In this document: positions 32,304-60,474 of the stretch, one piece after another
How positions within the stretch are numbered: the stretch's first letter is position 1
How the letters are laid out: the number at the start of each line of letters is the position of its first letter
Assembly (NCBI GenBank): GCA_016926235.1
Contig: JAFGOZ010000723.1
Span: 1-64,000 of the forward strand
From: Bacteroidales bacterium
GTDB lineage: Bacteria; Bacteroidota; Bacteroidia; Bacteroidales; UBA10428
Direction: 5' to 3'
DNA: 64,000 nucleotides
Translations under genes and position numbers: made by a program
The notes under the pieces: generated by a model
Told to the model about the DNA's origin: nothing
Database searches by the model: none
What the model saw: the letters and a program-made list of their open reading frames with translations, nothing else

Positions 32304-33689
32304 ATGAAATTTATTTCAACTAGTAACTTATTAATGATTACCATATTAGTTACATTAACTTTTTGCGTAAATAGGACTAAAAATGAGGAAGACAATTCGA
32401 AAATCGGAGAAATACAGGAGAAAGAGTTATACCTTCCTGCCAAAGTTGAACGGGTGCCTGATAGTAATGATTATAATGATGACGAAAGCGATTTTTGTTA
32501 TGCACGGATGTCCCAGTCAGACAATATCGCCATATTCTGGCATAAGGAATATGGTTATGACCCAATGACTAATCCTGATACAACCAAACGCTTCGATGTA
32601 AACCTGGCGCTAAGCGAATGTGAACGTTTTTACCAGTATTATGTAAATGAACTGAAGCTGGTACATAAGGGAAATTCTTTAACAGATAAGTACAAAATGC
32701 TTATTTATATTTTTGGAGGAGAAGAGAATACAGCATTTGGAGGAGGAGAAGAAGATAAAATCGGTATTATTTGGACACCTGCCCGGCGGATAAATAAGGC
32801 ACCATATGGTGCTTTAGCCCATGAGATGGCACATAGTTTTCAATATATCAGCGATATTGAGAACGGGAGAGGAGTAACAGGACCCATTATTGAGATGTCG
32901 GCACAGTATATGCTCTGGCAGGTCTATCCTGAATGGATGACTTTTGAGAATTATCATCTGATAGATTATATGAAAGGAACACATTATGCATTTCTGCATC
33001 CTGAGAATATGTATCATTCTCCTTATGTACTGGAATATTGGGCAGATAAACACGGGAAAGAGTTTTTTGGAAACTTAAACCGGGCTACTCTGAAGGAAGA
33101 GGATCCGGTAATGACTTATAAAAGGATCAATGGACTGACACAGGAACAATTTAATGATGAAATGTTTGATGCATCACGCAGGTTTATTACCTGGGATTTA
33201 AAAAGGGTAGAAAAAGAGGCAAAAAAATATGCTAACCAACATCTGGCTAAACTTATAGATATGGATAATGGCTGGTATCGAATAGATTCCACCAATTGTC
33301 CGCAAAACTATGGCTATAATGGCATAAAACTTAAAGTTCCTGCAGCAAAAACTAAAGTTGTTTTGAATTTTAAAGGTATTGCCGGCAGCAAGGGGTATAC
33401 TAAAGTTAATACAGATAAAGCCGGATGGAGATATGGTTTTGTTGCATCACTAAAAGATGGTAGTCGTGTTTATAGTGACGTTTTCAATGAAACGTCAGGA
33501 TCTGCAGAATTTAAAGTACCTAAGAATACTGAGTTTTTATGGTTGGTAGTGAGTGGAGCTCCTTCAGAACACTGGCCTGTTGTAATAAAATGGGATGCTG
33601 AAGCTGAAGAAGCACCTGAGGAACAATGGCCATATAAGTTTAAACTAACAGGGACTACTATAGACGAATCTGTAAAGGTAAAACCATAG
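32304..33689 (+). CDS. HExxH lipoprotein, putative metallopeptidase (DUF6055-like)
   Basis: 461 residues. The lipobox-like LTFC places the lipidated Cys at 21. The zinc-peptidase motif AHEMAHSFQY has H173, E174 and H177, and E197 in IEMSAQYM is a good third ligand as in gluzincins. The segment DKIGIIWTP upstream and the C-terminal beta-sandwich (about 330-455) match its paralog at 41646-43532, but this copy lacks the DUF4859 domain. I recall this group as DUF6055. A role in cutting the protein backbone of glycoproteins is inferred from the neighbours. Convergent with the Xaa-Pro aminopeptidase gene. Confidence 0.75.
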   Translation: MKFISTSNLLMITILVTLTFCVNRTKNEEDNSKIGEIQEKELYLPAKVERVPDSNDYNDDESDFCYARMSQSDNIAIFWHKEYGYDPMTNPDTTKRFDVNLALSECERFYQYYVNELKLVHKGNSLTDKYKMLIYIFGGEENTAFGGGEEDKIGIIWTPARRINKAPYGALAHEMAHSFQYISDIENGRGVTGPIIEMSAQYMLWQVYPEWMTFENYHLIDYMKGTHYAFLHPENMYHSPYVLEYWADKHGKEFFGNLNRATLKEEDPVMTYKRINGLTQEQFNDEMFDASRRFITWDLKRVEKEAKKYANQHLAKLIDMDNGWYRIDSTNCPQNYGYNGIKLKVPAAKTKVVLNFKGIAGSKGYTKVNTDKAGWRYGFVASLKDGSRVYSDVFNETSGSAEFKVPKNTEFLWLVVSGAPSEHWPVVIKWDAEAEEAPEEQWPYKFKLTGTTIDESVKVKP

Positions 33690-33738
33690 TTTGATTGATA
33701 GTTTGATTATTAGTGTATTTTCTTCTACCAGGCTATCC

Positions 33739-34812
33739 TTAATTTATAATTATCAGCTCCCTGCTAAAATTACTTAAAGTTTCAGAGTTTTTCTCCTTCA
33801 CCAGGATGGTATCTTCAATCCGCAAACCACCCCAATGGGGTATATATATTCCTGGTTCAACGGTCACTACCATGCCTTTCTGGAATACGAAATCTGCATT
33901 CAGTTTTAAAAAAGGCTCTTCATGTATATCGAGGCCCACTCCGTGACCATATCCATGATATAAATATTCTTTATATTTATCTGGAATGATATTGTTTATG
34001 ATTTTATTAATGTGACTAATATGAACTTCGTTCTTTATTTCATGAACAATAGTTTGTTGACATTCATAAATAATAGAGTATAATTCCTTTTGCTTATCTG
34101 AAGTCTCACCAACAATTAGGGTACGGCTCACATCGGCGTGGTATCCATGAACTAATGCACCAAAATCGAAAAGTAGAAAATCTCCCTTACTAATTTTTCT
34201 ATTTGATGGTTTTCCATGTAACAAGGATGTTCTTTTTCCAGTTTGTAAAAGGGTTTCAAATGAGATATTGTCAGCTCCGCCTGTGCGAATATTATATTCT
34301 AATCTGGCAGCAATTTCAATTTCCGACATCCCAGGTTTAATTTTGGGTAAAGTGACCTGTAATGCCTGATCGGTCATTTTACATGCTGTTTTCAGGTTTT
34401 CAATTTCAGTTTCATCTTTTATGAGTCTTTTTTGTTCAATTAGGCTTTTAGTAATTTTCAATTCAACGTTTATAAGATTGTTCCTGAGATAATCGTAGGT
34501 TGACAGAGTGAGGTTCTCACCTTCAATACCAAGCTTTTTAACATTATATTTATCTATTAGAAATTGATAGGTCTTAAATCCATAACGAATATTATTAATC
34601 CAAAGCATTACCTTTAGGTTTGGACATTCATTTTGTGCCTGCTCAAAATACCGTTGATCTGTTATTAATACAGCTTGATCTTTAATAATGAACAATATTG
34701 AAGATTCCCCTGTAAAGGATGAGAGATAACTTACGTTGGATGTATTTGAAACCAGGATACCATCAAGATGTAAGTTGCTTAAGATAAGTATTAAACTGTG
34801 AATTCGCTCCAT
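33739..34812 (-). CDS. Xaa-Pro aminopeptidase/prolidase-like M24B peptidase
   Basis: 357 residues, cytoplasmic. The creatinase-type N-terminal domain (1-125) is followed by the pita-bread catalytic domain with the five metal ligands D216 (DFGAL), D227 (HADVSR), H290 (GYGHGVGLDIHEEP), E319 (VEPGIY) and E333 (GLRIEDT). It removes N-terminal residues preceding proline (or, in known cases, hydroxyproline) or cleaves X-Pro dipeptides. It is divergent from the NUDIX regulator, and two operator-like palindromes lie between them, which makes co-regulation with the SusCD operon likely. In this locus it would release free hydroxyproline from imported peptides (inference). Confidence 0.93.
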   Translation of the reverse strand: MERIHSLILILSNLHLDGILVSNTSNVSYLSSFTGESSILFIIKDQAVLITDQRYFEQAQNECPNLKVMLWINNIRYGFKTYQFLIDKYNVKKLGIEGENLTLSTYDYLRNNLINVELKITKSLIEQKRLIKDETEIENLKTACKMTDQALQVTLPKIKPGMSEIEIAARLEYNIRTGGADNISFETLLQTGKRTSLLHGKPSNRKISKGDFLLFDFGALVHGYHADVSRTLIVGETSDKQKELYSIIYECQQTIVHEIKNEVHISHINKIINNIIPDKYKEYLYHGYGHGVGLDIHEEPFLKLNADFVFQKGMVVTVEPGIYIPHWGGLRIEDTILVKEKNSETLSNFSRELIIIN

Positions 34813-34860
34813 TAATTGATTTATTTAATTAAGAATCAATTATATAAGATTTAGAAAAAT

Positions 34861-34885
34861 AATAATAGTAGAATTTACCATTATT
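34861..34885. promoter_or_regulatory. Operator-like palindrome A (NUDIX regulator region)
   Basis: AATAATAGTA-GAATT-TACCATTATT is a 10-5-10 inverted repeat with one mismatch in the intergenic region between the Xaa-Pro peptidase and the regulator. It shares the GTA-N5-TAC core with the sites at 34901-34925 and 35660-35684. Confidence 0.65.
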
Positions 34886-34900
34886 ATTTTAATTTTTACT

Positions 34901-34925
34901 TTTAATTGTAAAAAATACTATTTAT
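34901..34925. promoter_or_regulatory. Operator-like palindrome B (before NUDIX regulator)
   Basis: TTTAATTGTA-AAAAA-TACTATTTAT has the same 10-5-10 layout and GTA-N5-TAC core as palindrome A, 22 bp before the regulator start. This suggests autoregulation. Confidence 0.5.
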
Positions 34926-34947
34926 ATTGCGCCAATTAATTTAAAAT

Positions 34948-35643
34948 ATGAATCAGGCTGAATCCTATAATAAAAACCCTCGGCACTTACTTTCAGTTGA
35001 ATGTGTGATATTTGGCTATGAAGAAGAACAATTAAAAGTATTATTATGTCCAAGAGGATTCTCTCCATCATACGGACAATGGGCATTGTTAGGAGGATTT
35101 GTTAGGGCTAATGAAACGTTGGATGATGCGGCAAGAAGAATATTATTAAACAGTATGGGACTTAGTAATATTTTCCAGGAACAGGTTTATACATTCTCAA
35201 AACTTGATCGTGATCCGGTCGACAGGGTTGTTAGTGTTGCATATTATGCATTGATAAAGATAAACGAGCATGATAAGGATCTTGTAAGAGAGCATTGCGC
35301 GCACTGGTGGCCAATAAGCAAACTACCGGCATTAGCCTTTGATCATCGCGAAATGGTTGATGCAGCACTTGGAGCATTACAGCGTAAAGCAGTAATTGAA
35401 ATGGTTGGGAAGGACCTGCTGGATGATCTCTTTACCTTAGGTGAACTGAAAAAACTGTATGAATCAATATTCCAGAAAGAATTTGATAATAGCAATTTCA
35501 GAAAGAAGATACTGAGTATGAATATCCTGGAGAAAACAAATAAGAAGGACAAGAATGACTCCAGAAGAGGCTCATTCTATTACAAATTTAAGCCAGAAGA
35601 GGAGATTAGCTATAAAAAGAATGAAATTCTAGTACGAATATAA
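34948..35643 (+). CDS. NUDIX-fold transcriptional regulator, NrtR/AraR-like
   Basis: 231 residues. N-terminal NUDIX-fold domain (about 12-150), C-terminal winged helix (about 150-231, containing LFTLGELKKLYESIF and NFRKKILSMNILEKT). The Nudix box aligns as G50...E56...R64, but the catalytic REUXEE stretch reads RILLNS, so hydrolase activity should be lost and the domain acts as a sensor. NrtR-family proteins of this build include AraR of gut Bacteroides, which responds to L-arabinose (known from the literature). The arabinofuranosidases in this locus fit an arabinose effector. Matching palindromes flank it and precede susC. Confidence 0.88.
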   Translation: MNQAESYNKNPRHLLSVECVIFGYEEEQLKVLLCPRGFSPSYGQWALLGGFVRANETLDDAARRILLNSMGLSNIFQEQVYTFSKLDRDPVDRVVSVAYYALIKINEHDKDLVREHCAHWWPISKLPALAFDHREMVDAALGALQRKAVIEMVGKDLLDDLFTLGELKKLYESIFQKEFDNSNFRKKILSMNILEKTNKKDKNDSRRGSFYYKFKPEEEISYKKNEILVRI

Positions 35644-35659
35644 TTTTTTTACATTTAAT

Positions 35660-35684
35660 AATAATGGTAAAAAGTACTATAATA
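35660..35684. promoter_or_regulatory. Operator-like palindrome C (before susC)
   Basis: AATAATGGTA-AAAAG-TACTATAATA shares its left arm with the reverse arm of palindrome A (AATAATGGTA) and the same GTA-N5-TAC core. It lies 32 bp before the SusC start, where it would control the large operon. Confidence 0.6.
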
Positions 35685-35715
35685 ATATTTAAAATTAACC
35701 TAACTACAATTGCCT

Positions 35716-38700
35716 ATGAAACCTATTAATCTAAACCAATCAGAAAGGCCAATGTATACCAATATCAGAAGAATACTGATTTCATTAGCTTTTTTGTGTG
35801 CCTTTTTCCCAGCTGTTGCCCAGGTAAAAATTACGGGCACAATAATGGACCAATCAAACCAACCCCTTCCGGGTGTTTCTGTTACGATAAAAGGAACTAC
35901 TCAAGGGACTCTTTCGGGTATGAATGGTGAATTTTCTATCAATGCTGATGAAGGTCAGACACTGGTCTTTTCCTTTCTAGGGTATAAAGACCAGAGTATA
36001 GTGGTTTCTGCCAGCAGCACAAATCTCTTCATTGTTATGGAGGAAGAAATTATTGAATTAGCGGAAGTGGTGGCCATTGGCTATGGAACTGTGCGAAAGG
36101 CAGATGTTACCAGTGCAGTGGCCACAGTGAAAGCGGAGGATTTTTTACCAGGGAAAACACAGGATGCAGCTGAATTAATTAAAGGTAAAGTGGCCGGACT
36201 GTCTATTACAAAGAGTTCTGGTGATCCGAATGCGACTTCTACAATTTTATTGAGGGGAATAAGCTCAATTTATAGCAGCTTTACACCCTTGATATTAATT
36301 GATGGTATTCCGGGTGAATTGACAACAGTAGCTCCTGAAAATATTGAATCTATTGATGTTCTGAAGGATGCATCCGCAGCAGCTATTTATGGTACAAGAG
36401 GCGCGAACGGTGTAATTATTATTACCACCAAAACAGGTCAACGTCAACAGCCAATAACCGCGGTTTATTCGAGCTATTTTTCAGCATCAACATTTATGAA
36501 AGAGGCTGAGTTTATGACAGTGGATGATATTATTGCCGGTAAAACGGTCTTCCCTTTTAGAGGTTATGAGACTGATTGGGTGAATGCAGTTACCCGAACC
36601 GGATTAACTCAAAACCATTCTCTGAATTTAAGTGGAGGGACGGAAAAAATGGCATATTCCGGAAACATTTCTTATCGCAATGAAGCAGGAACCATCAAAA
36701 GATCAGATAATGAGGAACTTAAAATGCAAATGGACATTAAGCAATACATGTTTAATGATAAATTAAAAATCAATTTAAACATTTTAAAAGGATTGCATGA
36801 AAATAGTGCCAATAATACCGGAGAAACTAATTGGAATAACATATACCGCCAGGCGGTTATACGTAATCCTTCTGAACCCATCTACGATGAAAATGGCGAC
36901 TATTATGAAGATTTTAATCGATTCCAGTATTATAATCCGGTAGCTATGTTAAATGAACTTGAAGGTACCAAAAGCAAGGAATGGAGTCATTTAACAGGGA
37001 ATATAACTCTGGAGCCTGTCAAATCATGGGAGACAAATCTAATGTTATCAACCCAACAGGCAAATATAATCGAGTCAAGGTATACAACACCCGATTACTG
37101 GTCCAATAGGTTAAATGAAATACAGGGTGTTGCCAGTAAAGATTATGACAGAGAAATAAGTAACATACTCGAACTTACCTCACGTTACGAGCTCACAGCT
37201 TTAAATAAACATCGTGCAAGTTTGATGTGTGGATATAGCTATACTTATGAAGCCTATGATGGTTTTAATGCCAGTAATTCTGATTTTCCTAACAATGCTT
37301 ATCTATATAATAATTTGGAAGCAGGAAGCTATTTACAGGATGGAGAAGCAGGTATGGATAGTTATAAGAATGATAGCAGGTTGATAGCCTTTTTTGGTCG
37401 TGCTACCTACAATTATGATAATAAATACAATATAATGACTAGTTTACGACGCGAAGGCTCATCCAAATTTGGTGAAGATCACCGATGGGGATGGTTTCCA
37501 TCTTTATCCACTGCCTGGACCATGAGTAATGAAGATTTTATGTCCGGTTTAACATGGCTTGATCATTTGAAATTACGTGCTGGTTACGGCGTTACAGGTA
37601 AATTTCCCGATGATCCTTATCAATCATTATTGACATTCCAATTTGATAATGCATATGGTAATTATTTAAGCACGGATGGAAACTGGTTACCAGGGTTGCA
37701 AGTTAATCAAAATGAAAACAGTTTATTACATTGGGAAAAAACTTCTGAAATAAATATTGGACTGGACTTTAGTCTGATAAAAAACAGGATTGGTGGATCC
37801 ATCAACCTATATAATAAAGAAACCGATGACATGCTATTTTTATATACAGTACCCGTACCCCCTAATCTAAACATTGAAACGATGGCAAATGCTGCTTCAA
37901 TAGGAAACAAAGGTATTGAGATATTATTAGAAGGAGTCCCGGTAAAAAAAGGTAAATTCTTATGGAATTCAACCCTTACATTTTCTCACAATAAGAACAA
38001 ACTATTAAGTCTGTCTAATGACCTATATAAAACCGAAGATACTAAGGATGTAGGTTGGTTGGGTGATCCAGTATCAGCACCTACGCATCGTTGGGAAGTA
38101 GGTACAAATTTGGATAATTTTTGGGGTTTAAGAGCAGTGAGTGTTACTGAAGACGGATATTGGATCATTGAACATCCGGAAACTGGTAGGACTGAGATAT
38201 ACACCAATATTTCAGATCGCGAAGAGTACAGGCAATACCTTGGAAACGGATTACCAAAATATTATCTTGGATTGAATAATACCTTAAGGTATGGAGCTTT
38301 TGATTTAGGAGTTCAAATGAGCGGACAGTTTGGATTTAAAATCTTGAACCAACAACGTTTATTTTATGAAAATAATTACATTCAGTATAACAAGTTGGTA
38401 TCTGCTTCTGATCCGGTGTTTGGAATTGCTCCTCTGTCACGATCTCAAAGCCAGGTGTTTGTTGACTATTATCTTGAAAAAGGTGATTTTGTAAAATTTG
38501 ATAATGTAACTTTCGGATATACATTAAAATTAAATGAACGCACGCAATACATGAAAAGTCTGAGATTATATTTCTCAGGTCAAAACCTTTTCTGTATTAC
38601 GGGATATAAGGGACTCGATCCTGAAATAGGGCAAGGCAGTATAGAAGAGCTTGGGAATGATCCAAGAGATAAGTATCCGACTATTCGTTCATTTACTTTC

Positions 38701-38721
38701 GGACTTAATGCAAACTTTTAA
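35716..38721 (+). CDS. SusC-like TonB-dependent outer-membrane transporter
   Basis: 1001 residues from ATG 35716; a TTG six bases earlier is less likely. Signal peptide ends at AVAQ. Residues about 38-115 form the carboxypeptidase-regulatory-like domain (GTIMDQSNQPLPGVSVTIKG); the TonB-dependent plug follows (VVAIGYGTVRKADVTSA; GIPGEL; VLKDASAAAIYGTRGANGVI) and then the 22-strand barrel ending FTFGLNANF. It imports oligosaccharides or glycopeptides together with the SusD partner just downstream. It is the first gene of a probable 21-kb operon and is preceded by the operator-like palindrome at 35660-35684. Confidence 0.96.
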   Translation: MKPINLNQSERPMYTNIRRILISLAFLCAFFPAVAQVKITGTIMDQSNQPLPGVSVTIKGTTQGTLSGMNGEFSINADEGQTLVFSFLGYKDQSIVVSASSTNLFIVMEEEIIELAEVVAIGYGTVRKADVTSAVATVKAEDFLPGKTQDAAELIKGKVAGLSITKSSGDPNATSTILLRGISSIYSSFTPLILIDGIPGELTTVAPENIESIDVLKDASAAAIYGTRGANGVIIITTKTGQRQQPITAVYSSYFSASTFMKEAEFMTVDDIIAGKTVFPFRGYETDWVNAVTRTGLTQNHSLNLSGGTEKMAYSGNISYRNEAGTIKRSDNEELKMQMDIKQYMFNDKLKINLNILKGLHENSANNTGETNWNNIYRQAVIRNPSEPIYDENGDYYEDFNRFQYYNPVAMLNELEGTKSKEWSHLTGNITLEPVKSWETNLMLSTQQANIIESRYTTPDYWSNRLNEIQGVASKDYDREISNILELTSRYELTALNKHRASLMCGYSYTYEAYDGFNASNSDFPNNAYLYNNLEAGSYLQDGEAGMDSYKNDSRLIAFFGRATYNYDNKYNIMTSLRREGSSKFGEDHRWGWFPSLSTAWTMSNEDFMSGLTWLDHLKLRAGYGVTGKFPDDPYQSLLTFQFDNAYGNYLSTDGNWLPGLQVNQNENSLLHWEKTSEINIGLDFSLIKNRIGGSINLYNKETDDMLFLYTVPVPPNLNIETMANAASIGNKGIEILLEGVPVKKGKFLWNSTLTFSHNKNKLLSLSNDLYKTEDTKDVGWLGDPVSAPTHRWEVGTNLDNFWGLRAVSVTEDGYWIIEHPETGRTEIYTNISDREEYRQYLGNGLPKYYLGLNNTLRYGAFDLGVQMSGQFGFKILNQQRLFYENNYIQYNKLVSASDPVFGIAPLSRSQSQVFVDYYLEKGDFVKFDNVTFGYTLKLNERTQYMKSLRLYFSGQNLFCITGYKGLDPEIGQGSIEELGNDPRDKYPTIRSFTFGLNANF

Positions 38722-38732
38722 ACTAAGGAACT

Positions 38733-40403
38733 ATGAATTCAATATATAAAAAAATAATAGGTTTAGTAACTGTACTTGTTTTATTAGTGTGCAGTTCTTG
38801 TACAAAACTTGATGAAACTCCCTATGAAGATTTAACGGCAAACAACCTGGAATTTAATGATCAGGATATTGAAGCGTTATCTGGATCAATTTATGCGCGT
38901 CTTCGATTTTTGTATTGGGGATGGAATGGTTTGTTCGATATTCAGGAAGAATCATCCGATTGTATTATGACTCCACTTCGGATTGGTATTGGCTGGGGTG
39001 AATTATACATTGCCATGCACCAGCATACATATCACTCAAACATTGATCATTTTTGGACAATTTGGAAATATGGTTTTGACGGAATTGGATATGCCAATAT
39101 GTGTCTTGACTTTGAAGAGGTAAAAGCAGATAAGGAACAATATGCAAAAATACGTACTATGCGTGCATTGATTTACTATATACTTTTTGATTGTTTTAGG
39201 AATGTTCCGCTGTTAACTACGATGGATTTACCTGCGGGCTATTTACCTGAGCAAGCTGATCCTCAGGATGTATATGATTTTATTATTAGTGAATTGAAAG
39301 AAGCTAAAAAAGATCTTGGCACTGAAAAAGTATTTGGGCATCCAAATAAATACGTGGCGCATATGGTATTAGCTAAAATGTATTTAAATCATAATGCATG
39401 GTTTAAAGATTTTTCCAGTAATGAATACTATGAATTAGCATTAGCCGAAGCTGATAGTGTAATACAATTCGGTGGCTATACGTTGGAAGCAAATTATAAG
39501 GATTGTTTTTTAGAAGATATTTCAACTAGTTCGGAAATAATTTTTGCCATCCCATTAGATTATACCTACGCAAATCACAATTATCTTGCCCAAAAATGTT
39601 TATTGAATGCTGGAGCTAAAGCTTATGGTTATACAGGAGAATGTTGGGGAGGAAGTTGTGCTATTCCTCAGTTTATAGATACCTACGATCCTAACGACAA
39701 ACGTTTTGATGATACATGGGCACACGGTCAGCAATATGATTACGAAACAGGTGAGGCATTAAAAGCAGACGTGGATGACCAGGGAAATGTTGCTTTGGTA
39801 TATACAAAAGAGGTTCACTCCATTAATAACCCGGGTGCTTATATGCTGGAAGGATATCGTTATGTAAAAAATGAAATACTACCTGGTGTATATGGCACCC
39901 GTGGTGACGATGTTCCTTTTTTCCGCCTGGCTGATGCTATGTTTATCAAGGCTGAGTGCTTGTTACGGTTAGGACGCAACCAACAGGAGGCTGCTGATTT
40001 GATTACCGAGGTTCGTCAGCGTGCTTTCGATAGTATTGCTGACGCAACGAGAACTATTGCAGATTTAACCGGAGGAAGTGTTTACGATTATGGCCATCGT
40101 GAATATACCAGCGAGGGACCTAAGAATTTTTCAACATTTGTAGCTACCTATGAGGGAGGCGATGATGTTGAATTAGGAGGTTTATTAGATGACCTGGCTT
40201 GGGAGTTCGTGGGAGAACATCATCGTCGTCAGGATCTCATACGTTTCCGATTGACAAGTAATAATAATATGAATGTATACAATGGGAAATCATGGTTTTG
40301 TAAAGACGCCGATTTTGATATGGACAAAGACATATTCCCGATCCATCAATCATTTTTAGATGCAAATCTTAATCTCGTTCAAAATCCGGGATATGAAGAA
40401 TAA
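38733..40403 (+). CDS. SusD/RagB-like surface glycan-binding lipoprotein
   Basis: 556 residues. Lipobox VCSSC (Cys 23). Helical TPR-rich SusD fold with typical segments: KIRTMRALIYYILFDCFRNV, HPNKYVAHMVLAKMYLN, FFRLADAMFIKAECLLRLGRN (RagB/SusD C-terminal) and EFVGEHHRRQDLIRF. It acts as the lid of the SusC transporter and binds the incoming ligand. It follows susC by 11 bp. The many surface Trp residues around 65-115 (YWGWNGLF, WTIWKYG) could form the sugar platform. Confidence 0.95.
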   Translation: MNSIYKKIIGLVTVLVLLVCSSCTKLDETPYEDLTANNLEFNDQDIEALSGSIYARLRFLYWGWNGLFDIQEESSDCIMTPLRIGIGWGELYIAMHQHTYHSNIDHFWTIWKYGFDGIGYANMCLDFEEVKADKEQYAKIRTMRALIYYILFDCFRNVPLLTTMDLPAGYLPEQADPQDVYDFIISELKEAKKDLGTEKVFGHPNKYVAHMVLAKMYLNHNAWFKDFSSNEYYELALAEADSVIQFGGYTLEANYKDCFLEDISTSSEIIFAIPLDYTYANHNYLAQKCLLNAGAKAYGYTGECWGGSCAIPQFIDTYDPNDKRFDDTWAHGQQYDYETGEALKADVDDQGNVALVYTKEVHSINNPGAYMLEGYRYVKNEILPGVYGTRGDDVPFFRLADAMFIKAECLLRLGRNQQEAADLITEVRQRAFDSIADATRTIADLTGGSVYDYGHREYTSEGPKNFSTFVATYEGGDDVELGGLLDDLAWEFVGEHHRRQDLIRFRLTSNNNMNVYNGKSWFCKDADFDMDKDIFPIHQSFLDANLNLVQNPGYEE

Positions 40404-41572: not shown

Positions 41573-41608
41573 TTTCAGGCACAGGAATATTCCTGTGCCT
41601 GAAACTCT
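41573..41608 (+). terminator. Strong intra-operon hairpin terminator/attenuator
   Basis: A perfect 32-nt palindrome with 16-bp arms (TTTCAGGCACAGGAAT paired with ATTCCTGTGCCTGAAA) is followed by CTCTTTT. Lying 11 bp after the DUF4859 gene, it should lower expression of the enzymes relative to SusCDE-like surface proteins. Confidence 0.88.
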
Positions 41609-41645
41609 TTTATTTAGCAAACGACTTTCTCTATTTATTACAATT

Positions 41646-52689: not shown

Positions 52690-53991
52690 ATGAAGATGGA
52701 TTTTAAATGGAGAAGTATATTGCTTTTTGCTATAGTTACAGGGTTATTAATATCCTGCGAGGAAGATGAAGTTTCAAAACCACTACCTGAGATCATTGAA
52801 GAAGATACTTCAACATTTGTCGGGCCGGGAGTATATCAGGTATTTGAGATAGATATACAGGTAGAGAACAATGCACCCGTTGTATCAAAAGATAAGGCTG
52901 ATTACCTGAATTGTAGCATTAATATTGATGGCAAAGGTGTATATGATGATTACCAGGGGACTGCCCGTATAAGGGGAAGAGGGAACTCTACATGGTTCTG
53001 GTATGATAAAAAACCTTATCGCATTAAACTGGATGAGAAATCTGAAATACTGGGCTTAAAAAGTGATAAGGATTGGGTTTTACTTGCCAACTACCGTGAT
53101 CCGACTGATTTGATGAATACATTTGGATTTGAGGTGGCCCAATTTCTGGGTTTACCATATACCAACAACACCCGATATATTGAGGTGACACTGAATGGTG
53201 ACTATATCGGCCTGTATCAGCTCACCGAACAAGTGGAACAGGGTACAAACAGGGTAAATGTGGATAAAGATGAAGGCTTACTTATATGCCTTGATCTGGA
53301 CGATGGTCCATCCCTCAATCCGGGAGTTGGCGATAACTTCTGGTCCGAAGTGTTTAAAATGCCTGTATGTGTAAAGTATCCTGAGGATCCCACAGTCGTA
53401 CAAATTTCGGCCATTAAAGCGGACTTTGCAAAACTGGAAAAAGCCATCAATGACCACAATTACTATGCTGTGGATGCTCTCATTGATATACAAACATTTA
53501 TCGATTATCTGATTTTACAGGAGTTGGTTTACAATGTTGAGATTGACGCACCCCGAAGCACATTTCTCTATAAGGACAAAGCCGGAAAATATGTAATGGG
53601 GCCAGTATGGGACTTTGATGCAGGATTTGATTTTGACTGGGGCACCATGTATACGGGTCATAACTTTTTTAATGCTCAGGAGCTGGTGCTTGGCACTGAT
53701 CCAGCTAACCATAAAGGAGGCTACAGGATACCTGATTTCTTCACCCAGATGTTCAGAAACAGACAATTTATTGAAGAATATAAATCCAGGTGGAACGGTG
53801 TAAGAGATACTATTTTTGAACAGGTATGGATGAGTATGGAATGTTATGCGGATGCTTTGCAAGATGCTTTGGCACGTGATTTTGAACGTTGGCCAATTGA
53901 CAGGAATTATACTACTGAAACTGAAAGGATGAAGAACTGGTTGTCAAACAGGGTTTCATATCTCAATACCGTCATTAATAATTATCCTTAG
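52690..53991 (+). CDS. CotH-kinase-family lipoprotein
   Basis: 433 residues. Lipobox LLISC (Cys 23). CotH-fold motifs: RGRGNSTW (95-102), the ATP-binding Lys region YRIKL (110-114), LLANYRDPTDLMN (131-143), ITEQ-like YQLTEQVE (176-183), and the metal-binding WDFDAGFDFDW (307-317). Known CotH enzymes phosphorylate serine in spore-coat proteins; Bacteroidota members are often surface proteins in polysaccharide loci with unknown targets. Here it lies between the GH97 and the P5C dehydrogenase gene, 41 bp after the former, and is probably co-transcribed. Confidence 0.92.
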   Translation: MKMDFKWRSILLFAIVTGLLISCEEDEVSKPLPEIIEEDTSTFVGPGVYQVFEIDIQVENNAPVVSKDKADYLNCSINIDGKGVYDDYQGTARIRGRGNSTWFWYDKKPYRIKLDEKSEILGLKSDKDWVLLANYRDPTDLMNTFGFEVAQFLGLPYTNNTRYIEVTLNGDYIGLYQLTEQVEQGTNRVNVDKDEGLLICLDLDDGPSLNPGVGDNFWSEVFKMPVCVKYPEDPTVVQISAIKADFAKLEKAINDHNYYAVDALIDIQTFIDYLILQELVYNVEIDAPRSTFLYKDKAGKYVMGPVWDFDAGFDFDWGTMYTGHNFFNAQELVLGTDPANHKGGYRIPDFFTQMFRNRQFIEEYKSRWNGVRDTIFEQVWMSMECYADALQDALARDFERWPIDRNYTTETERMKNWLSNRVSYLNTVINNYP

Positions 53992-54025: not shown

Positions 54026-55651
54026 ATGGAAAATTCAATTCTCCATATCAGCACTCCGGTTAATGAGCATGTGTTTCATTATGAAAGAAACAGTGAGGAA
54101 CGCAGGTTATTATTAGATGCCATTGAATCATTGGGTAAAAATTCGGTTGAAATACCTTTGATCATTGGAGGAAAAGGGATCAGGACAGGAGATACAGGGA
54201 AGGTAGTATGTCCTCATGACCATCAAAAAGTACTGGCTATCTATCACAAAGCCACTGAGAAGGAGATATTGCTTGCAATTGAAACATCTCTGGAGGCTAA
54301 AAGGAGGTGGGAAGAGGTATCCTGGATCGACAGGGCATATATTATGAACCGGGCAGCCGAACTGATCTCAAAAAAGTACAGGTTTACCATAAATGCCGCT
54401 ACGATGCTGGGGCAAAGCAAAACACCTTACCAGGCAGAAATAGATTCAGCATGTGAGGTAATCGATTTTTTAAGGTACAATGTGTATTTTGCCTCCCTGA
54501 TATATCAACTACAGCCTAATTCGAATACCAGCCAGGTAAACAGGATTGATTACAGATCTCTCGAAGGTTTTGTATTTACAGTTTCTCCGTTTAACTTTAC
54601 CGCCATTGCTTCAAATCTGAATATGTCTGCTGTAATGATGGGCAATACAACAGTTTGGAAACCTGCCTCAACGGCATTACTATCCAATTATTTCCTGATG
54701 AAAATATTTCAGGAAGCTGGATTGCCGGATGGTGTAATAAATTTTTTACCTGGGAGCGGATCCTTAATAGGAAAAGCTGTAACAAGCCATAAGGACCTTG
54801 CCGGAATTCATTTTACAGGATCAAATAATACCTTTAATTACCTGTGGAAGAGTATTGCCAATAACCTTGAGAGCTTTAAATCCTATCCAAAACTGGTAGG
54901 AGAAACCGGGGGCAAAAATTTTATATTTGCACATAGATCAGCCGGTATTAAGGAATTGGCAACAGCGATAGTTCGCGGAGGATTTGAATACCAGGGTCAA
55001 AAATGTTCGGCTGCATCACGTGTTTATATTCCTAAATCTTTGTGGAAGGAATTGAAAGATTTGTTGCTGGAAATGGTTTCAGAAATAAAGATGGGGGATG
55101 TACTTGATTTTTCCAATTTTATGAATGCAGTAATTGATGAGCCATCCTTTGATAATATTATGGAGTATATTCAAAAGGCTAAGGATTCAAAAGATTGTGA
55201 AATAATGTTCGGAGGCAATGGGGATAAAACCGTGGGATACTTCATAGAACCTACATTAATCCTTACTAAGGATCCCAATTTTATAACTATGCGGGAAGAA
55301 ATTTTTGGTCCGGTAGTTTCCCTTTATTTGTATGACGATATTAAATATGAAGAAACACTAGAAATTTGTAATCACACATCTCCCTATGGGCTTACCGGCG
55401 CCATTTTTGGAAATGATATTTATGCTGTTGCAAAAGCAGAGGAAATATTGAAACATGCCGCCGGTAATTTTTATGTAAATGATAAACCTACAGGAGCAGT
55501 TGTTGGAATGCAGCCATTCGGTGGGGCAAGAGCCTCAGGAACAAATGATAAAGCGGGAAGTATATTTAACTTGTTGCGATGGACCAATCCAAGGAACATC
55601 AAAAAACAGTTGTATCCTTCAACAGACTATAAATATGTTTTTATGCAATGA
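54026..55651 (+). CDS. pruA: L-glutamate gamma-semialdehyde (delta-1-pyrroline-5-carboxylate) dehydrogenase
   Basis: 541 residues, cytoplasmic, no signal. ALDH fold with VSPFNFTAI, the catalytic E293 (GETGGKN), nucleophile C327 (YQGQKCSAASR) and the C-terminal ASGTNDKAG of single-domain P5C dehydrogenases (ALDH4 type), with the typical family length. It oxidises glutamate semialdehyde, in equilibrium with pyrroline-5-carboxylate, to glutamate with NAD. In an operon of extracellular glycosidases and peptidases it is otherwise out of place; the HypD gene nearby supplies its substrate from hydroxyproline, which gives it a clear role. No proline dehydrogenase (PutA) domain is fused. Confidence 0.95.
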   Translation: MENSILHISTPVNEHVFHYERNSEERRLLLDAIESLGKNSVEIPLIIGGKGIRTGDTGKVVCPHDHQKVLAIYHKATEKEILLAIETSLEAKRRWEEVSWIDRAYIMNRAAELISKKYRFTINAATMLGQSKTPYQAEIDSACEVIDFLRYNVYFASLIYQLQPNSNTSQVNRIDYRSLEGFVFTVSPFNFTAIASNLNMSAVMMGNTTVWKPASTALLSNYFLMKIFQEAGLPDGVINFLPGSGSLIGKAVTSHKDLAGIHFTGSNNTFNYLWKSIANNLESFKSYPKLVGETGGKNFIFAHRSAGIKELATAIVRGGFEYQGQKCSAASRVYIPKSLWKELKDLLLEMVSEIKMGDVLDFSNFMNAVIDEPSFDNIMEYIQKAKDSKDCEIMFGGNGDKTVGYFIEPTLILTKDPNFITMREEIFGPVVSLYLYDDIKYEETLEICNHTSPYGLTGAIFGNDIYAVAKAEEILKHAAGNFYVNDKPTGAVVGMQPFGGARASGTNDKAGSIFNLLRWTNPRNIKKQLYPSTDYKYVFMQ

Positions 55652-55691
55652 GAAATAATTATATTTGGTTAACATATCAAAAATATCAAAA

Positions 55692-57167
55692 ATGAATAAA
55701 TCTTTTATAATATTAGTACTAACTACAACAATGAACCTCAATGCCCAGGTAAGGTTCAATGAATACTTCACTGATGAAGCCCTGAGAATTGATTATTTCC
55801 ATACGGGGAATGCAGATCAGGAAACATTCGCACTGGATAAAATATACAGATATAACAAATGGGCCGGAAATCCCAATCACTGCATACAAAATTCACAAGT
55901 CGGAGATTATAGAATAGAGGTGTATAATGCCGTAAATAATAATTTGATATATTCGAAAGGGTATAACTCCATTTTTTTTGAATACCAAACAACACAACCA
56001 GCTCATGATGGAATAAACAAGACCTGCCATGAAAGTGTTTGGATACCAAATCCCAAAAACCCTGTGATATGCAAAATTACAAAAAGGGAGAAAGATCAAA
56101 AATTCAATGCCATTTATTCCTTTGAAATAGATCCGGGAGATTATCACATTCATAACGAAAAACCAGCTTCATTAGATGGTGTAATAGTTAACTCCATAAA
56201 GAGCGGGGATCCTCATTTTAAAGTAGATTTGGTTATTGTAGGAGAGGGGTATACAGACCAGGACGAAGAGAAATTCAGAAAAGACCTGGACTATTACATA
56301 ACATTATTTTTAAATACTGAACCATACAAAAGTCACAAAGATGAATTTAATATTACCGGTATAATGCCTTTCTCTGATGAAGGTGGACCGGATGAACCCC
56401 GTAAAGGGATATATAAGAATACTGCTCTGAACAGTAGTTTTAATCTGTTTGATCTGGAGCGTTATATGTTAATTGAGGATAACAAAACATTGCAGGATGT
56501 TGCATGCAGTGTACCCTTTGATGCTCTTTTAATCATGGTTAATACAAGCAGATATGGAGGTGGGGCAATCTATAATTTTCAAACTGTTTTCTCTTCAGAC
56601 AACCCAAAGAAAGAATATGTTTTTCTTCATGAACTAGGACATGGTCTTACCGGTCTGGCCGATGAATACTATTCGAGCAGTGTTGCATATGTCGATTTTT
56701 ATCCTTCTGGTGTTGAACCTCCGGAACCGAACATCACTGCACTTTTGAACCCTGATAGTGTAAAATGGCTGGATTTACTATCACCGGGCATTGAAATACC
56801 TACAAAATGGGGTAAGGAATTATTCGACAGTTTAAACATTGCTGCCTATAAACTTAGGATGGCGAAGGAGGATACACTTAATTTCTTGTATAATACTTCT
56901 GTTTCGGAGGAGGTTATAAATTCAGTTATTTTGCACTATGACAAAAAAATTGAAGCCTTCATCGATGAAATTGAAAGTTTCATCAGGAATCACCCTCTAA
57001 AAGATGAGGTTGGTGTTTTTGAAGGTGCAGGATACCAATCACACGGTTTATATCGCCCAACACTGTATTCAATGATGCACGGCTTTGATAAAGAAAACAT
57101 TTCATATGGCCCTGTAAATGAAAGGGCTATTCTGAAAATAATCAGGTACTATACTGATCAGGAGTAA
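55692..57167 (+). CDS. Secreted M64 family zinc peptidase
   Basis: 491 residues from ATG 55692, which opens a signal peptide (FIILVLTTTMNLNAQ). The N-terminal beta-sandwich (20-165, M64_N-like) is followed by the peptidase domain with VDLVIVGEGYTD, and the zinc motif HELGHGLTGLADEYY (H313, E314, H317, D324), the HExxHxxxxxxD form of IgA peptidase M64. It would hydrolyse proteins in the periplasm or outside. It has no lipobox or T9SS tail. It is the last + strand gene, 41 bp after the P5C dehydrogenase, and converges on hypD. Confidence 0.93.
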   Translation: MNKSFIILVLTTTMNLNAQVRFNEYFTDEALRIDYFHTGNADQETFALDKIYRYNKWAGNPNHCIQNSQVGDYRIEVYNAVNNNLIYSKGYNSIFFEYQTTQPAHDGINKTCHESVWIPNPKNPVICKITKREKDQKFNAIYSFEIDPGDYHIHNEKPASLDGVIVNSIKSGDPHFKVDLVIVGEGYTDQDEEKFRKDLDYYITLFLNTEPYKSHKDEFNITGIMPFSDEGGPDEPRKGIYKNTALNSSFNLFDLERYMLIEDNKTLQDVACSVPFDALLIMVNTSRYGGGAIYNFQTVFSSDNPKKEYVFLHELGHGLTGLADEYYSSSVAYVDFYPSGVEPPEPNITALLNPDSVKWLDLLSPGIEIPTKWGKELFDSLNIAAYKLRMAKEDTLNFLYNTSVSEEVINSVILHYDKKIEAFIDEIESFIRNHPLKDEVGVFEGAGYQSHGLYRPTLYSMMHGFDKENISYGPVNERAILKIIRYYTDQE

Positions 57168-57255
57168 TCTACATTACAAGGATAAATGGATGAATGGATT
57201 AGTTTATAAATATCTATCTTTAATGTATTGATTTTTTAAATATCCTACTTCTCTA

Positions 57256-59613
57256 CTAAATCTCCTGATGTTCGGTTCTCCTGATAATTTCATTCTGTAG
57301 ATCTACTCCCAGATCATTAAAATAATCGGAATAACCCGCTACCCTTACAATTAAATCCGTATGAAGTTCAGGATGAAGTTGAGCATCACGTAGTGTATCG
57401 ACATCCACTACATTAAACTGAATATGATGACCATTCAACCTGAAATAGGACCGTACCAGTGAAGTCAGGTTTTCCAGAGCACCTTCATATTCAAAGAAAG
57501 AAGGGGTAAACTTCTGATTCATCAACGTTCCTCCGGTTTTTAGTTGGTCGATTTTTGAGGCAGACTTTATGGCTGAAGTAGGTCCATTTCTATCAGCACC
57601 CTGCACCGGACTTATCCCTTCCGAAGTGGGTTTCTTTGCCAGTCTTCCATCGGGGGTTGCTCCTGTAACAGCGCCAAAATAGACATGGCAGGTTGTAGGC
57701 AGCATATCAATGCAATATACACCTCCGGTTGAAGTTGGCTGGCCATCAACTGCATTAAAGAATGCATCAAAAACGACTTTTGCCTGGGTATCGGCACTGT
57801 CATCATCGTTCCCGTATTTGGGTGTTTCAAAAATAAGTTGCCTGCGAATTTCAGGATATTCGCCAAAATTGGTGTCTATAGCCTTTATTAAATCAGGGAA
57901 GGTCATATTTTTTTGATCAAATACATGATACTTAATGGCTGTAAGCGAATCGGTGATGGTCCCCAGGCCTACTCCCTGGATATAACTCGTATTGTACCTG
58001 GCTCCACCAGCGTTATAGTCTTTTGCATTAGCAATACAATCTTCAATTAATAATGAAAGAAAAGGTGCAGGCAGATTTTTTGCCCAGGTTTGTTCAATAA
58101 AGCGATTACCTCTTATTTTGATATCAATAAAATAGTTTAACTGCCTTGTATAAGCTTGAAAGAGTTCTTCATACGATTTAAAATTTAGCGGATTACCTGT
58201 TTCAATACCGATTTTTCTACCACTTTGTGGATCGATACCATTGTTTAGTGTTATTTCAAGAACTTTCACCAGGTTAAAATACCCCGTAAGAACAAAACTT
58301 TCGGTTCCGAAGGCACCTGTTTCAACGCAACCGGATGCACCCCCATTCCTGGCATCAACAATGGTTTTTCCTTGTCTGACCAATTCTTCAATTATGGCAT
58401 CAGTGTTAAATAATGAGGGTTGTCCGAAACCTGTTTTTATTATATTAAGTGCCCGTTGAATGAACTGATCTGAATTTTTCCTGCTTACCTGGATCATGGA
58501 ACTGGGTTGTAATAACCTCATTTCTTCAATAACGTCCAGAATTATATAGGAAACCTCATTTATAGCATCATGCCCTTCTTCTGTAAGACCACCCAGATTG
58601 ATCATGCAAAAATCAGTATAGGTATTGCTCTCCATTGCGGTAACACCGACTTTTGGAGGAGCCGGATGGTTATTAAATTTGATCCAGAAAGCATGCAAAA
58701 GTTCATATATTGCCTCCTTTGATACACCCTTTTTAATGTCATTCTGGTAAACAGGTAATAAATGCTGGTCCAGCCGTCCCGGGTTGAATGAATCCCAGGG
58801 ATTTAATTCGGATATTACTCCCAGATGTATAAACCAGTAATGCTGTAACATTTCATGAACTGTTTCAGGTGCTTCGGCTGGTACTTTGTTGCAAATACGG
58901 GCCATTTCGATCAGTTCATCCTGACGTTTCTGGTCAGTCTCTTTTTCAGCCATTTTCCCTAATTCAACAGCATGACGCTGTGCAAATTCAATAACAGCCT
59001 TACCGGCAATTTGCATAGCTTTTAATTCTTCTATAGCATCCGAATCATTTTCCTTGTCAACGGTCTTCATCCGGTCATCAATTTCTTTTAACAGATCATT
59101 TATGCCCAACGTGAACATTTTTTTTCCAAGTACAGTATGTCCGGGAGCGCGTTGTTCCTGAAACTCGGTAAATATTCCGGCTTTATAAACTTCTTTCCAT
59201 TCATCAAATATCCCATCCATGATCCGTTCGCGGTTTGACTTGCCTTTCCAGTAAGGAATTATTTCAAAGCGGTAAATATCCATTACTTCCTGGCTTACTT
59301 TAAAGGATATTTTTGTCCTGCTGTTTAAAATCTCAAGATCTTTAATGCTATGCAAGTTTATTTCGGGGTAGGTTGGAGTACCTTTGGGTGCGGGACCTCT
59401 TTCACCTACAATAAGTTCATAGGGATTAATACATATCGTTTTATTCCTGAATAAATACTCTAAAGCTTTAGCTCTAAGAACAGGGGCTGATAAACTTTTA
59501 GAAGCATCACTCTTATAAAAGGCAGTGATCAATTGTGCCCTCTCGGGCGATATGTACTCAACAGCATGGAGGCTTTGAGTTCTTAATTTGCTGATTCGTT
59601 CAGTACATTTCAT
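57256..59613 (-). CDS. hypD: Trans-4-hydroxy-L-proline dehydratase (glycyl-radical enzyme, HypD)
   Basis: 785 residues, choosing the ATG whose complement ends at 59613 (an upstream ATG adds 14 hydrophobic residues and is less likely). Glycyl-radical enzyme fold. Radical site G760 in RVAGYSD; catalytic C429 and E431 in GASGCVETGAFG. From memory of the Clostridioides difficile enzyme (C434, E436, G765), the substrate-site residues F151, H159, D274, S329 and F335 are also kept (FQEQRAPGH, NPWD, ESNTYTDF). It dehydrates trans-4-hydroxyproline to pyrroline-5-carboxylate, the substrate of the neighbouring P5C dehydrogenase. Oxygen-sensitive, needs the activase just upstream. Confidence 0.93.
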   Translation of the reverse strand: MKCTERISKLRTQSLHAVEYISPERAQLITAFYKSDASKSLSAPVLRAKALEYLFRNKTICINPYELIVGERGPAPKGTPTYPEINLHSIKDLEILNSRTKISFKVSQEVMDIYRFEIIPYWKGKSNRERIMDGIFDEWKEVYKAGIFTEFQEQRAPGHTVLGKKMFTLGINDLLKEIDDRMKTVDKENDSDAIEELKAMQIAGKAVIEFAQRHAVELGKMAEKETDQKRQDELIEMARICNKVPAEAPETVHEMLQHYWFIHLGVISELNPWDSFNPGRLDQHLLPVYQNDIKKGVSKEAIYELLHAFWIKFNNHPAPPKVGVTAMESNTYTDFCMINLGGLTEEGHDAINEVSYIILDVIEEMRLLQPSSMIQVSRKNSDQFIQRALNIIKTGFGQPSLFNTDAIIEELVRQGKTIVDARNGGASGCVETGAFGTESFVLTGYFNLVKVLEITLNNGIDPQSGRKIGIETGNPLNFKSYEELFQAYTRQLNYFIDIKIRGNRFIEQTWAKNLPAPFLSLLIEDCIANAKDYNAGGARYNTSYIQGVGLGTITDSLTAIKYHVFDQKNMTFPDLIKAIDTNFGEYPEIRRQLIFETPKYGNDDDSADTQAKVVFDAFFNAVDGQPTSTGGVYCIDMLPTTCHVYFGAVTGATPDGRLAKKPTSEGISPVQGADRNGPTSAIKSASKIDQLKTGGTLMNQKFTPSFFEYEGALENLTSLVRSYFRLNGHHIQFNVVDVDTLRDAQLHPELHTDLIVRVAGYSDYFNDLGVDLQNEIIRRTEHQEI

Positions 59614-59676
59614 TTTTTTTTCATTTATAGAGATGATAAAGTATGGAAAATACACACCTAAGCGGCCTGACCCGTC

Positions 59677-60474
59677 TTAGTGAATTTTTACTTTAAAGCC
59701 TTCTTTTTTAAATAATTCTATATAATTCTCAATTTCCTGCCTTTTTGGTTCATTTACTTCCTTCATGCCATTGGAGTAACCAAACTTTGCATTTTTTGAT
59801 TTTCCCAGTTTATGGTAAGGCAGTAAGTGCACCTCACTGAAGTTATCACTCTTAAGAGGCCGTATAATGTTTGCTATTCCTTCCAGTTCTGTTTGATTCA
59901 GGTTAACACCCGGAACAACCGGAATACGGGCAATAACATCTTTCTCTGATCCTACTGCATGTTTCAGATTTATAATTATAAGCTTATTGTCAACCCCCGT
60001 ATGGGTTTTATGTCCGTTGGAGCCGGCCATTTTTAGATCAAACAGGAATAAATCGGTAAAAGGAACAACTGATAAGAAATCTTCTTCTTTAGCGAAGCCT
60101 GATGTATCCAATGCGGTATGAATACCAAAAGATTTGCAGAGTTCAAGTATTTCCCGGCTGAACTTTGCCTGGTAGAGAGGTTCTCCGCCTGACAAGGTAA
60201 CACCACCCTTGCCTTCTTCCATAAACACTCTTTCCTTTTCAATTTCTGCCATTACTTCTTCTGTGGACATCCAACGGCCAATCTCACGCAATACTTCATA
60301 CTGGTTGCCTTCAATTTTATCGATGGATTTGTATTTTTGTATATGAGGATCTTTGCTTTCAGGATTATGGCACCACCAGCAGTCAAGTGGGCATCCCTTC
60401 ATGAAAATAGTGGTACGGAGACCATTCCCATCATGGATAGCAAAGCGTTTAATATCAAAAACTATTCCTCGCAC
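59677..60474 (-). CDS. hypE: Radical-SAM glycyl-radical-enzyme activase for HypD
   Basis: 265 residues. The radical-SAM motif CPLDCWWC (C28, C32, C35) follows IHDGNGLRTTIFMKG, with the SAM-binding GGVTLSGGEPL near 90-100 and DTSGFA further on. It installs the glycyl radical on HypD, whose gene lies 63 bp downstream on the same strand. Unlike typical HypE-type activases with a ferredoxin-like insert that binds two extra [4Fe-4S] clusters, the segment between C35 and GGEP is only about 60 residues and has no further cysteine, so it is a minimal, pyruvate-formate-lyase-activase-like form. Its target is inferred from gene order. Confidence 0.9.
   Translation of the reverse strand: MRGIVFDIKRFAIHDGNGLRTTIFMKGCPLDCWWCHNPESKDPHIQKYKSIDKIEGNQYEVLREIGRWMSTEEVMAEIEKERVFMEEGKGGVTLSGGEPLYQAKFSREILELCKSFGIHTALDTSGFAKEEDFLSVVPFTDLFLFDLKMAGSNGHKTHTGVDNKLIIINLKHAVGSEKDVIARIPVVPGVNLNQTELEGIANIIRPLKSDNFSEVHLLPYHKLGKSKNAKFGYSNGMKEVNEPKRQEIENYIELFKKEGFKVKIH

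Follow-up and report, generated by a model that had tools for sequence, protein, structure and literature searches.

Related systems and the present locus

The hydroxyproline (Hyp)-arabinoside hydrolases of Bifidobacterium and Xanthomonas, the Hyp dehydratase HypD of Clostridia and an extensin-cleaving gluzincin of Pectobacterium are already known. In the current analysis we describe a locus at positions 32304-60474 of a 64,000-nucleotide stretch of a Bacteroidales bacterium (contig JAFGOZ010000723.1, positions 1 to 64,000; referred to here as the window). It is a SusC/SusD-type locus which, judging from the families it encodes, probably harvests both the sugars and the Hyp of arabinosylated extensin-type hydroxyproline-rich glycoproteins (HRGPs).

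The hypBA1-hypBA2-hypAA genes of Bifidobacterium longum are reported to encode GH127 and GH43 enzymes for the Hyp-linked β-arabino-oligosaccharides of extensin-type proteins (PMC6085000, PMC7263609), and the window shares these two families. Unlike the window, the B. longum system, which according to its description takes arabinose, relies on a GH121 enzyme together with an ABC transporter; the window adds SusC/SusD, a GH146-like protein, GH97, zinc peptidases, an Xaa-Pro peptidase and Hyp breakdown. GH121 β-L-arabinobiosidase received no call in the Pfam scans of 32304-60474, which did not include a search with a named GH121 model. The xehypBA1/BA2/AA genes of Xanthomonas euvesicatoria resemble the window in having HRGP arabinosidases with a peptidase-type gene nearby, namely a prolyl oligopeptidase-type gene, reported to be a pseudogene, that adjoins a Hyp-arabinoside hydrolase gene; in contrast to the window, neither SusC/SusD nor Hyp catabolic genes are mentioned in the available text of that report (PMC6085000). 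The HypD pathway of Clostridioides difficile has HypD and its activase in common with the window, including ten residues that were mutated (PMC7077986). The assay reported there couples 1-pyrroline-5-carboxylate (P5C) to proline through P5C reductase, whereas the P5C dehydrogenase of the window suggests a route from Hyp to glutamate, here in the setting of a glycan locus.

Cleavage of extensins has been reported for Svx, a gluzincin of Pectobacterium, as has recognition of the arabinose chains that extensins carry (PMC13164431). Svx and the M60-type O-glycopeptidases act on O-glycosylated proteins (PMC13164431, PMC9266454) and share the HExxH...E motif with the DUF6055 proteins of the window. 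Use of HRGPs has also been proposed for Latescibacteria from GH127 and arabinogalactan protein (AGP) enzymes (PMC4454575). The original prediction held that no locus of this make-up had been described, and our literature search, outside which most subscription journals and preprints lie, found none joining SusC/SusD arabinosidases to Hyp catabolism.

Organisation and proposed function of the locus

Families were assigned by Pfam, NCBIfam (curated cut-offs) and PDB sequence searches. SusC and SusD are adjacent and share one run with the glycosidases, as in SusC/SusD-type utilization loci. The run on the + strand extends from araR to the M64 gene, with DUF6055a ahead of it and the M24 gene on the opposite strand; the activase-hypD pair on the - strand converges on its end (GC of the window, 36%). 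All genes from SusC through M64 are on the same strand with intergenic gaps of 8-106 bp, which places the P5C dehydrogenase gene inside the run. It starts 34 bp past the CotH gene and ends 13 bp before the M64 gene, and its product passes the TIGR01236 cut-off. The families named in the original prediction (SusC/SusD, binding modules, GH43, GH127, GH146-like, GH97, peptidases, HypD with activase and P5C dehydrogenase) are all recognised by these searches. Not listed there were the AraR-type regulator (34948), the CotH-family lipoprotein (52690), a GH51-type gene (26679) and a pectinesterase-family gene (62667). Since other genomes contain similar combinations, the make-up of the locus does not look like mere coincidence.

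Based on the families, the surface lipoproteins may bind the glycoprotein, from which GH43 would strip α-arabinofuranose (Araf) and GH127/GH146 would strip β-Araf from Hyp, while α-galactose on serine would be removed by GH97. The bared Pro/Hyp-rich chain would then be cut by the DUF6055 (MEROPS M106) and M64 zinc peptidases, the pieces being imported through SusC/SusD and peptide uptake. A cytosolic M24 Xaa-Pro peptidase may free Hyp, which HypD would convert to P5C and P5C dehydrogenase to glutamate. An AraR-type repressor, likely sensing the released L-arabinose, would control the main run through candidate operator sites on either side of araR. Extensin appears to be the best single guess at the substrate, since the α-galactosidase and β-/α-arabinofuranosidase families, together with Pro-directed peptidases and the catabolism of Hyp, are what the Ser-Hyp4 motif would call for.

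Polysaccharide loci are usually taken to deal with sugars only. If the proposed function is true, a structural glycoprotein of plants (or algae) is handled by one gene set in all of its parts, namely sugar, protein and modified amino acid. Glycyl-radical Hyp catabolism would then have a source in nature on the plant side, and M106, so far an uncharacterised family of peptidases, a function that can be tested. DUF6055 with GH127/146 and either hypD or a Hyp epimerase could then serve as a genomic signature for HRGP eaters.

Predicted hydroxyproline module

The product of 57256..59655 is assigned by sequence as HypD and is predicted to dehydrate Hyp to P5C. Among solved structures it is closest to the Hyp dehydratase 6vxc (E 1e-295), far ahead of HplG, 7vua (E 3e-114), and it passes NF043068; HplG or another glycyl radical enzyme was therefore rejected as its identity. 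The residues H160, D278, S334, D339, F340, C434, E436, Y450, T645 and G765 (CdHypD numbering), reported to have been mutated singly in C. difficile HypD (PMC7077986), are conserved at ten out of ten positions in the window HypD and in nine other aligned HypDs.

The activase of 265 residues scores 258 bits against the HypD-activase model NF043069, short of the cut-off of 425, and passes only the broader TIGR02494. Short activases (261-267 aa), as if without an iron-sulfur insert, are seen in the window and in L092, L281, L284, L285, L286, L292, L294 and L295 (L numbers denote loci and G numbers genomes). The divergent HypDs of G550 and G595 (49-50% identical) are paired with longer activases of 302-306 aa.

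Glycosidases

The GH127 and GH146-like proteins both retain the ETC and CC motifs of the cysteine-rich active site of the GH127/GH146 superfamily. The best solved relative of the GH146-like protein is 5opj, which we take to be BtGH146, followed by the β-L-arabinofuranosidase 8k7x/8k7y. A zinc-coordinated cysteine has been reported in β-L-arabinofuranosidases (PMC10728902). The GH97 protein scores 729 bits with the model for retaining α-galactosidases (NF053844), narrowly under the cut-off of 800; it is closest to the solved α-galactosidases 3a24/5e1q and retains an aspartate at the position where 5e1q has glycine.

Peptidases

The three zinc-peptidase-type proteins of the original prediction correspond to the two DUF6055 proteins (motif HEMAH in 'a' and HEIGH in 'b') and an M64 protein with the motif HELGH. 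DUF6055 is listed as MEROPS M106 without a described function in the available text of PMC11241649. The DUF6055 proteins match PF19527, and the residues H173, E174, H177 and E197, in the HExxH...E arrangement, are invariant in 71 sequences. The AlphaFold2 model of DUF6055a (pLDDT 89) has M1 aminopeptidases as its nearest solved folds. DUF6055, on this model a possible gluzincin, is likely to be the endopeptidase of the locus. Both DUF6055 types are also encoded by Labilibaculum species.

The predicted Xaa-Pro aminopeptidase at 33739 (- strand) has the M24 family domains and reaches no NCBIfam cut-off (best PepQ, 255/630 bits). No secretion signal was seen by eye in this protein, and the M24 copy adjoining hypD in G792 is 50% identical to it.

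Regulator and candidate operators

The AraR-type regulator gene is situated directly upstream of the SusC/SusD run. Like BtAraR (BT0354), the regulator of an arabinose regulon in Bacteroides, its product is a Nudix-winged helix protein with an identical arabinose pocket, all ten L-arabinose-contact residues reported for BtAraR (PMC4666351) being the same. Of the six DNA-contact residues reported there (K179, R180, N181, K184, K204, R205), three are kept and K179, R180 and K204 differ; by position, unlike BtAraR, the protein would be dedicated to one locus. On our reading it would be a repressor released by L-arabinose and having an operator of its own. The 14-bp pattern GTAAAAARTACTAT, with one variable base, has exactly two mismatch-free matches in the window (34908 and 35667), and when two mismatches are allowed 9 matches are found against 3.2 expected.

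Related loci with HypD

A sugar-peptidase locus coupled to Hyp breakdown is seen repeatedly, and in two chemistries: HypD is found again in G013, G449, G521 and G792, and an epimerase-type gene in four genomes without a HypD match. In this sense the proposal of a locus for sugar, protein and hydroxyproline together has gained support, HypD lying beside both GH127-family and proline-peptidase genes in the former four. G792, G449 and G521 have GH127-family and dipeptidyl peptidase IV (DPP-IV)-type genes within 18 kb of hypD. A single 13-kb contig of G792 encodes a GH146-like protein, DPP-IV, a 283-aa protein, M24, HypD, activase and a GH127 protein cut by the contig end. The arrangements in G449 and G521 resemble this one in a looser form. 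In G449, GH127, GH43-like (25%) and DPP-IV genes adjoin activase-hypD. In G521 the genes extend over 30 kb and comprise aminopeptidase P, hybrid-sensor-like, activase, hypD, SusC-like, SusD, GH97, DPP-IV, GH127, M64, GH127-type and GH43-like (27%) genes.

In G013 a hybrid two-component sensor and GH146 are encoded on one strand of a contig and the remaining genes on the other. These begin with SusC, SusD, DUF4859, DUF6055b (62%), GH43 (66%) and two GH127-type proteins (one 70%), continue with a protein sorted by the type IX secretion system, a DPP-IV-type S9 peptidase, GH97 (59%), a 286-aa protein, GH31 and a CotH-family protein, and end with DUF6055a (68%), M61, activase (41%), HypD (65%) and aminopeptidase P. 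In the family of G013 the DUF6055 peptidase occurs in G013 alone (1/20). The 283-286 aa proteins form a family that recurs in or near the loci of G013, G792, G261, G630, G022 and G521; L093:6199-7059 gave no Pfam match and L285:6081-6932 no NCBIfam match.

GH127-family genes were searched in 70 hypD genomes (68 of the 129 HypD genomes together with G017 and G022). Such a gene is present in 37 of the 70, and in five (G013, G449, G521, G539 and G792; 8 genes) it is within 25 kb of hypD. The GH127-like gene of G539 is distant (27%) and no partner genes were recognised; G539 is counted among the five and was rejected as a linked locus. G595 was likewise rejected and is not counted, no glycosidase being recognised between its HypD and DUF6055 with the queries used. 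The two genes lie about 17 kb apart on a 36-kb contig (G595:C29), the divergent HypD being above the NF043068 cut-off.

A tree of 107 HypD rows was made by a quick method with Shimodaira-Hasegawa-like approximate likelihood ratio test (SH-aLRT) support only, the window, G013, G449, G521 and G792 being labelled as linked and G539 left unlabelled. Five changes are required for these five HypDs, the minimum forced by the well-supported branches, which would mean that the link was gained repeatedly, or was gained once and lost many times. Repeated gain of the hypD-glycosidase link is likely and is favoured here, because the linked loci share gene company yet differ in gene order.

Scanning of 80 hypD loci, of which 28 reach 20 kb, revealed DUF6055 in one (L024, from G013), aminopeptidase-P-type M24 in 16, DPP-IV-type in 6 and M64 in 4. 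The M24 gene occurs a few kb 3' of hypD in L006, L007, L011, L014, L016, L018, L020, L023, L024, L027, L034, L044, L072, L073, L076 and L077, a neighbourhood that would connect HypD in Bacteroidota with the use of proline peptides. Seven of the 80 loci have, 3' of hypD, a distant gene of the Pro_racemase family, 29-33% against the epimerase of G225 (L010, L014, L023, L027, L044, L046 and L078).

Related loci with DUF6055 and with an epimerase

Genomes for the DUF6055 comparison were sampled by phylum, by order and by class, as well as via the hypD loci, giving 41 regions. A GH127/GH146-type match (at least 30% identity) is present in 19 of them and a DPP-IV-type S9 match (at least 40%) in 8, one being G013, the source of the query. 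The core SusC-SusD-DUF4859-DUF6055b-CotH-GH43-GH127 recurs in G022, G494, G630 and G658. In the stretches read in G1171, G1146 and G1190 (DUF6055 about 40%), a single distant M24 is the sole partner gene. The CotH-family (kinase-like) lipoprotein gene is near DUF6055b in 9 of the 41 regions and is a recurrent neighbour in these glycan loci.

A Pro_racemase-family gene has been identified in 8 of 18 DUF6055 genomes searched, and none of these eight gave a HypD match. In G225, G245, G366 and G044 this gene and DUF6055 are 12-26 kb apart, and their locus also includes GH43, DPP-IV and a member of the GH127 superfamily (237-253 bits against PF07944 in each of the four); in G284, G386, G1099 and G1114 the Pro_racemase-family gene is located away from DUF6055, again with aldehyde dehydrogenase and oxidase genes as neighbours. 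The G225 protein passes the 4-hydroxyproline epimerase model NF010578 (593 bits, cut-off 376). Its locus reads SusC, SusD, M61, one gene in the opposite orientation, DapA-type, aldehyde dehydrogenase, epimerase, D-amino-acid-oxidase-type and amino acid permease, then DPP-IV, GH127-superfamily, DUF885, DUF5695, GH43, Xaa-Pro M24, DUF6055a and GH36 α-galactosidase. Breakdown of Hyp by the epimerase route uses genes of these types, namely epimerase, D-amino-acid oxidase, DapA-type protein and aldehyde dehydrogenase; the aldehyde dehydrogenase, oxidase and DapA-type proteins of G225 fall below curated cut-offs. The four epimerase loci perhaps represent two lineages rather than four independent cases, because the epimerases of G225 and G044 are 96% alike and G245 and G366 have a common gene order. 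The DUF885 (563 aa) and DUF5695 (896 aa) genes between the GH127-superfamily gene and GH43 of G225 (L140:10981-15426) have BLAST copies in the G245, G044 and G366 loci.

A wider proposal is that of a new class of modular 'hydroxyproline-glycoprotein utilization loci' for the use of an entire structural glycoprotein of plants, in which arabinose-sensing SusC/SusD glycosidase modules and an extensin endopeptidase of a new kind (M106) would be combined with an interchangeable Hyp module (HypD in anaerobes and epimerisation/oxidation elsewhere). Several lineages of Bacteroidota would have assembled such loci independently. We regard the chances of this proposal as evenly balanced.

Contrary evidence and alternative explanations

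Several observations weigh against a dedicated HRGP locus. In 65 of the 70 hypD genomes no GH127-family gene lies within 25 kb of hypD. A simple simulation expects 1.7 genomes against the five observed (P 0.025 for at least five), a value that is weak by itself because G013 was known beforehand and the G539 gene is distant. Shuffled labels on the HypD tree average 4.9 changes, so that the scatter is equally expected from chance neighbours. HypD is inside the fetched stretch in 1 of the 41 DUF6055 regions (G013), and the HypD model matched 8 of 27 DUF6055 genomes (6 above the cut-off and 2 fragments) in a search that left out G013, G440, G449, G521, G523 and G551, DUF6055 genomes with HypD already known; from these counts the sugar-protease part is wider spread than the HypD link. 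Co-occurrence of DUF6055 and HypD in genomes is weak (10/20 against 119/373, Fisher p 0.08, with a HypD threshold that missed the fragments of G494 and G709). The DUF6055 proteins of G044 and G366 are distant (24-26%).

The P5C dehydrogenase was on the contig of hypD in none of the seven relatives having the gene (13 searched; G013, G449, G521 and G792 included). The placement of this gene between glycosidases and hypD is, because of its different contig in all seven, particular to the window among the genomes seen; the P5C dehydrogenase gene of G521 has a GH127 gene at a distance of 4 kb and a DUF6055 gene at 26 kb. The search of the window revealed no candidate operator 5' of activase-hypD, with 0 or with up to two mismatches, and an operator shared with that pair was therefore rejected. 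The operator pattern had no match in 100 shuffles, a count that is no independent test because the pattern was derived from the same two sites.

The locus could instead serve arabinan or pectin side chains carrying α- and β-Araf, with the peptidases, P5C dehydrogenase and hypD as chance neighbours. Carriers of β-Araf include arabinan and rhamnogalacturonan II besides extensin (PMC10850190), the GH43 protein weakly matches the endo-arabinanase model AbnA (45/480 bits), the pectinesterase-family (62667) and GH51 (26679) genes are close by, and the nearness of GH127-family genes to hypD in just five of 70 genomes would agree with such an explanation. We nevertheless consider it unlikely, as no polysaccharide lyase or GH28 family was found among the proteins scanned in 32304-60474, the glycosidase genes are interspersed with two for DUF6055 peptidases, as is seen again elsewhere, and loci of this kind repeatedly have genes for Hyp breakdown next to them, in two chemistries that are unrelated. 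A substrate among other HRGPs (algal wall HRGPs, AGPs or solanaceous lectins) would share the Hyp-linked arabinose chemistry; some hypD relatives are seemingly metagenome-assembled genomes from lakes, and the in silico proposal for Latescibacteria concerns algal HRGPs, with GH127 for extensin (PMC4454575). The scanned proteins of the range, GH43 (no subfamily call) aside, include no family that would act on AGP chains as a galactanase or glucuronidase, whereas GH97 (window, G245 and G366) and GH36 (G225) fit the Ser-α-Gal that is reported as a mark of the extensin motif (PMC9266454), and this substrate in place of extensin seems quite unlikely.

It is very unlikely that HypD, M64 and M24 serve a general use of Pro/Hyp peptides, as from collagen-like food, independent of the sugar part. 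The aminopeptidase-P-type M24, DPP-IV-type and M64 genes of the 80 hypD loci would suit this explanation, as would the lack of any GH127-family match in them (0/80), an absence that is weak because only 28 of the loci reach 20 kb. The window itself has P5C dehydrogenase and M64 within the glycosidase run, and hypD of G792 is flanked by GH146-like and GH127 genes. Harvest of both sugars and Hyp from an extensin-type HRGP remains the reading that we prefer.

Features of the locus and its flanks

Table 1. Genes and candidate operator sites of the locus, with one flanking gene
Feature	Position	Strand	Evidence
DUF6055 (MEROPS M106) predicted secreted zinc peptidase 'a'	32304..33689	+	PF19527 469.5 bits; HEMAH at residue 173
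M24 peptidase, Xaa-Pro dipeptidase-like	33739..34812	-	PF00557, PF01321
Candidate AraR operator copy 1 (GTAAAAAATACTAT), between M24 and araR	34908..34921	+	match to GTAAAAARTACTAT
AraR-type Nudix/winged-helix regulator, predicted L-arabinose sensor	34948..35643	+	BtAraR 5bs6, E 5e-70
Candidate AraR operator copy 2 (GTAAAAAGTACTAT), immediately 5' of susC	35667..35680	+	match to GTAAAAARTACTAT
SusC-type TonB-dependent transporter	35710..38721	+	PF13715, PF07715, PF00593
SusD-type binding protein	38733..40403	+	PF07980, PF14322
DUF4859 lipoprotein, possible surface binding protein	40446..41561	+	PF16151 in two stretches; lipobox pattern
DUF6055 (M106) peptidase 'b' with DUF4859 fusion	41595..43532	+	PF19527 570.7 bits, PF16151; HEIGH at 206
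GH43 with F5/8C and LamG-like domains, predicted α-L-arabinofuranosidase	43639..45771	+	PF04616, PF00754, PF13385
GH127 β-L-arabinofuranosidase (predicted)	45854..48265	+	PF07944 351 bits, PF20736, PF20737; PDB 6ex6, 4qjy
GH146-like β-L-arabinofuranosidase (predicted)	48321..50684	+	PF07944 401 bits; PDB 5opj, then 8k7x/8k7y
GH97, retaining α-galactosidase type	50693..52648	+	PF10566; PDB 3a24/5e1q
CotH-family lipoprotein	52690..53991	+	PF08757; lipobox pattern
P5C (L-glutamate-γ-semialdehyde) dehydrogenase	54026..55651	+	TIGR01236 740.5 bits, cut-off 613.6; PDB 4idm
M64 peptidase	55665..57167	+	PF09471, PF16217; PDB 4df9, weaker IgA proteases
HypD, trans-4-hydroxy-L-proline dehydratase (glycyl radical enzyme; predicted)	57256..59655	-	NF043068 1188 bits, cut-off 1100
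HypD activase, short radical-SAM form	59677..60474	-	TIGR02494 254 bits, cut-off 174
GH51-type α-L-arabinofuranosidase, upstream of the locus	26679..29327	+	PF22848, PF22847, PF06964

A 342-aa protein without a Pfam family and with a lipoprotein-like start is encoded at 61282-62310, 5' of activase-hypD and on the other strand. The pectinesterase-family gene occupies 62667-63998 downstream of the locus, the end of the window falling inside it. The GH51-type gene is possibly part of the locus, and together with the pectinesterase-family gene it may extend the locus past 32304-60474.

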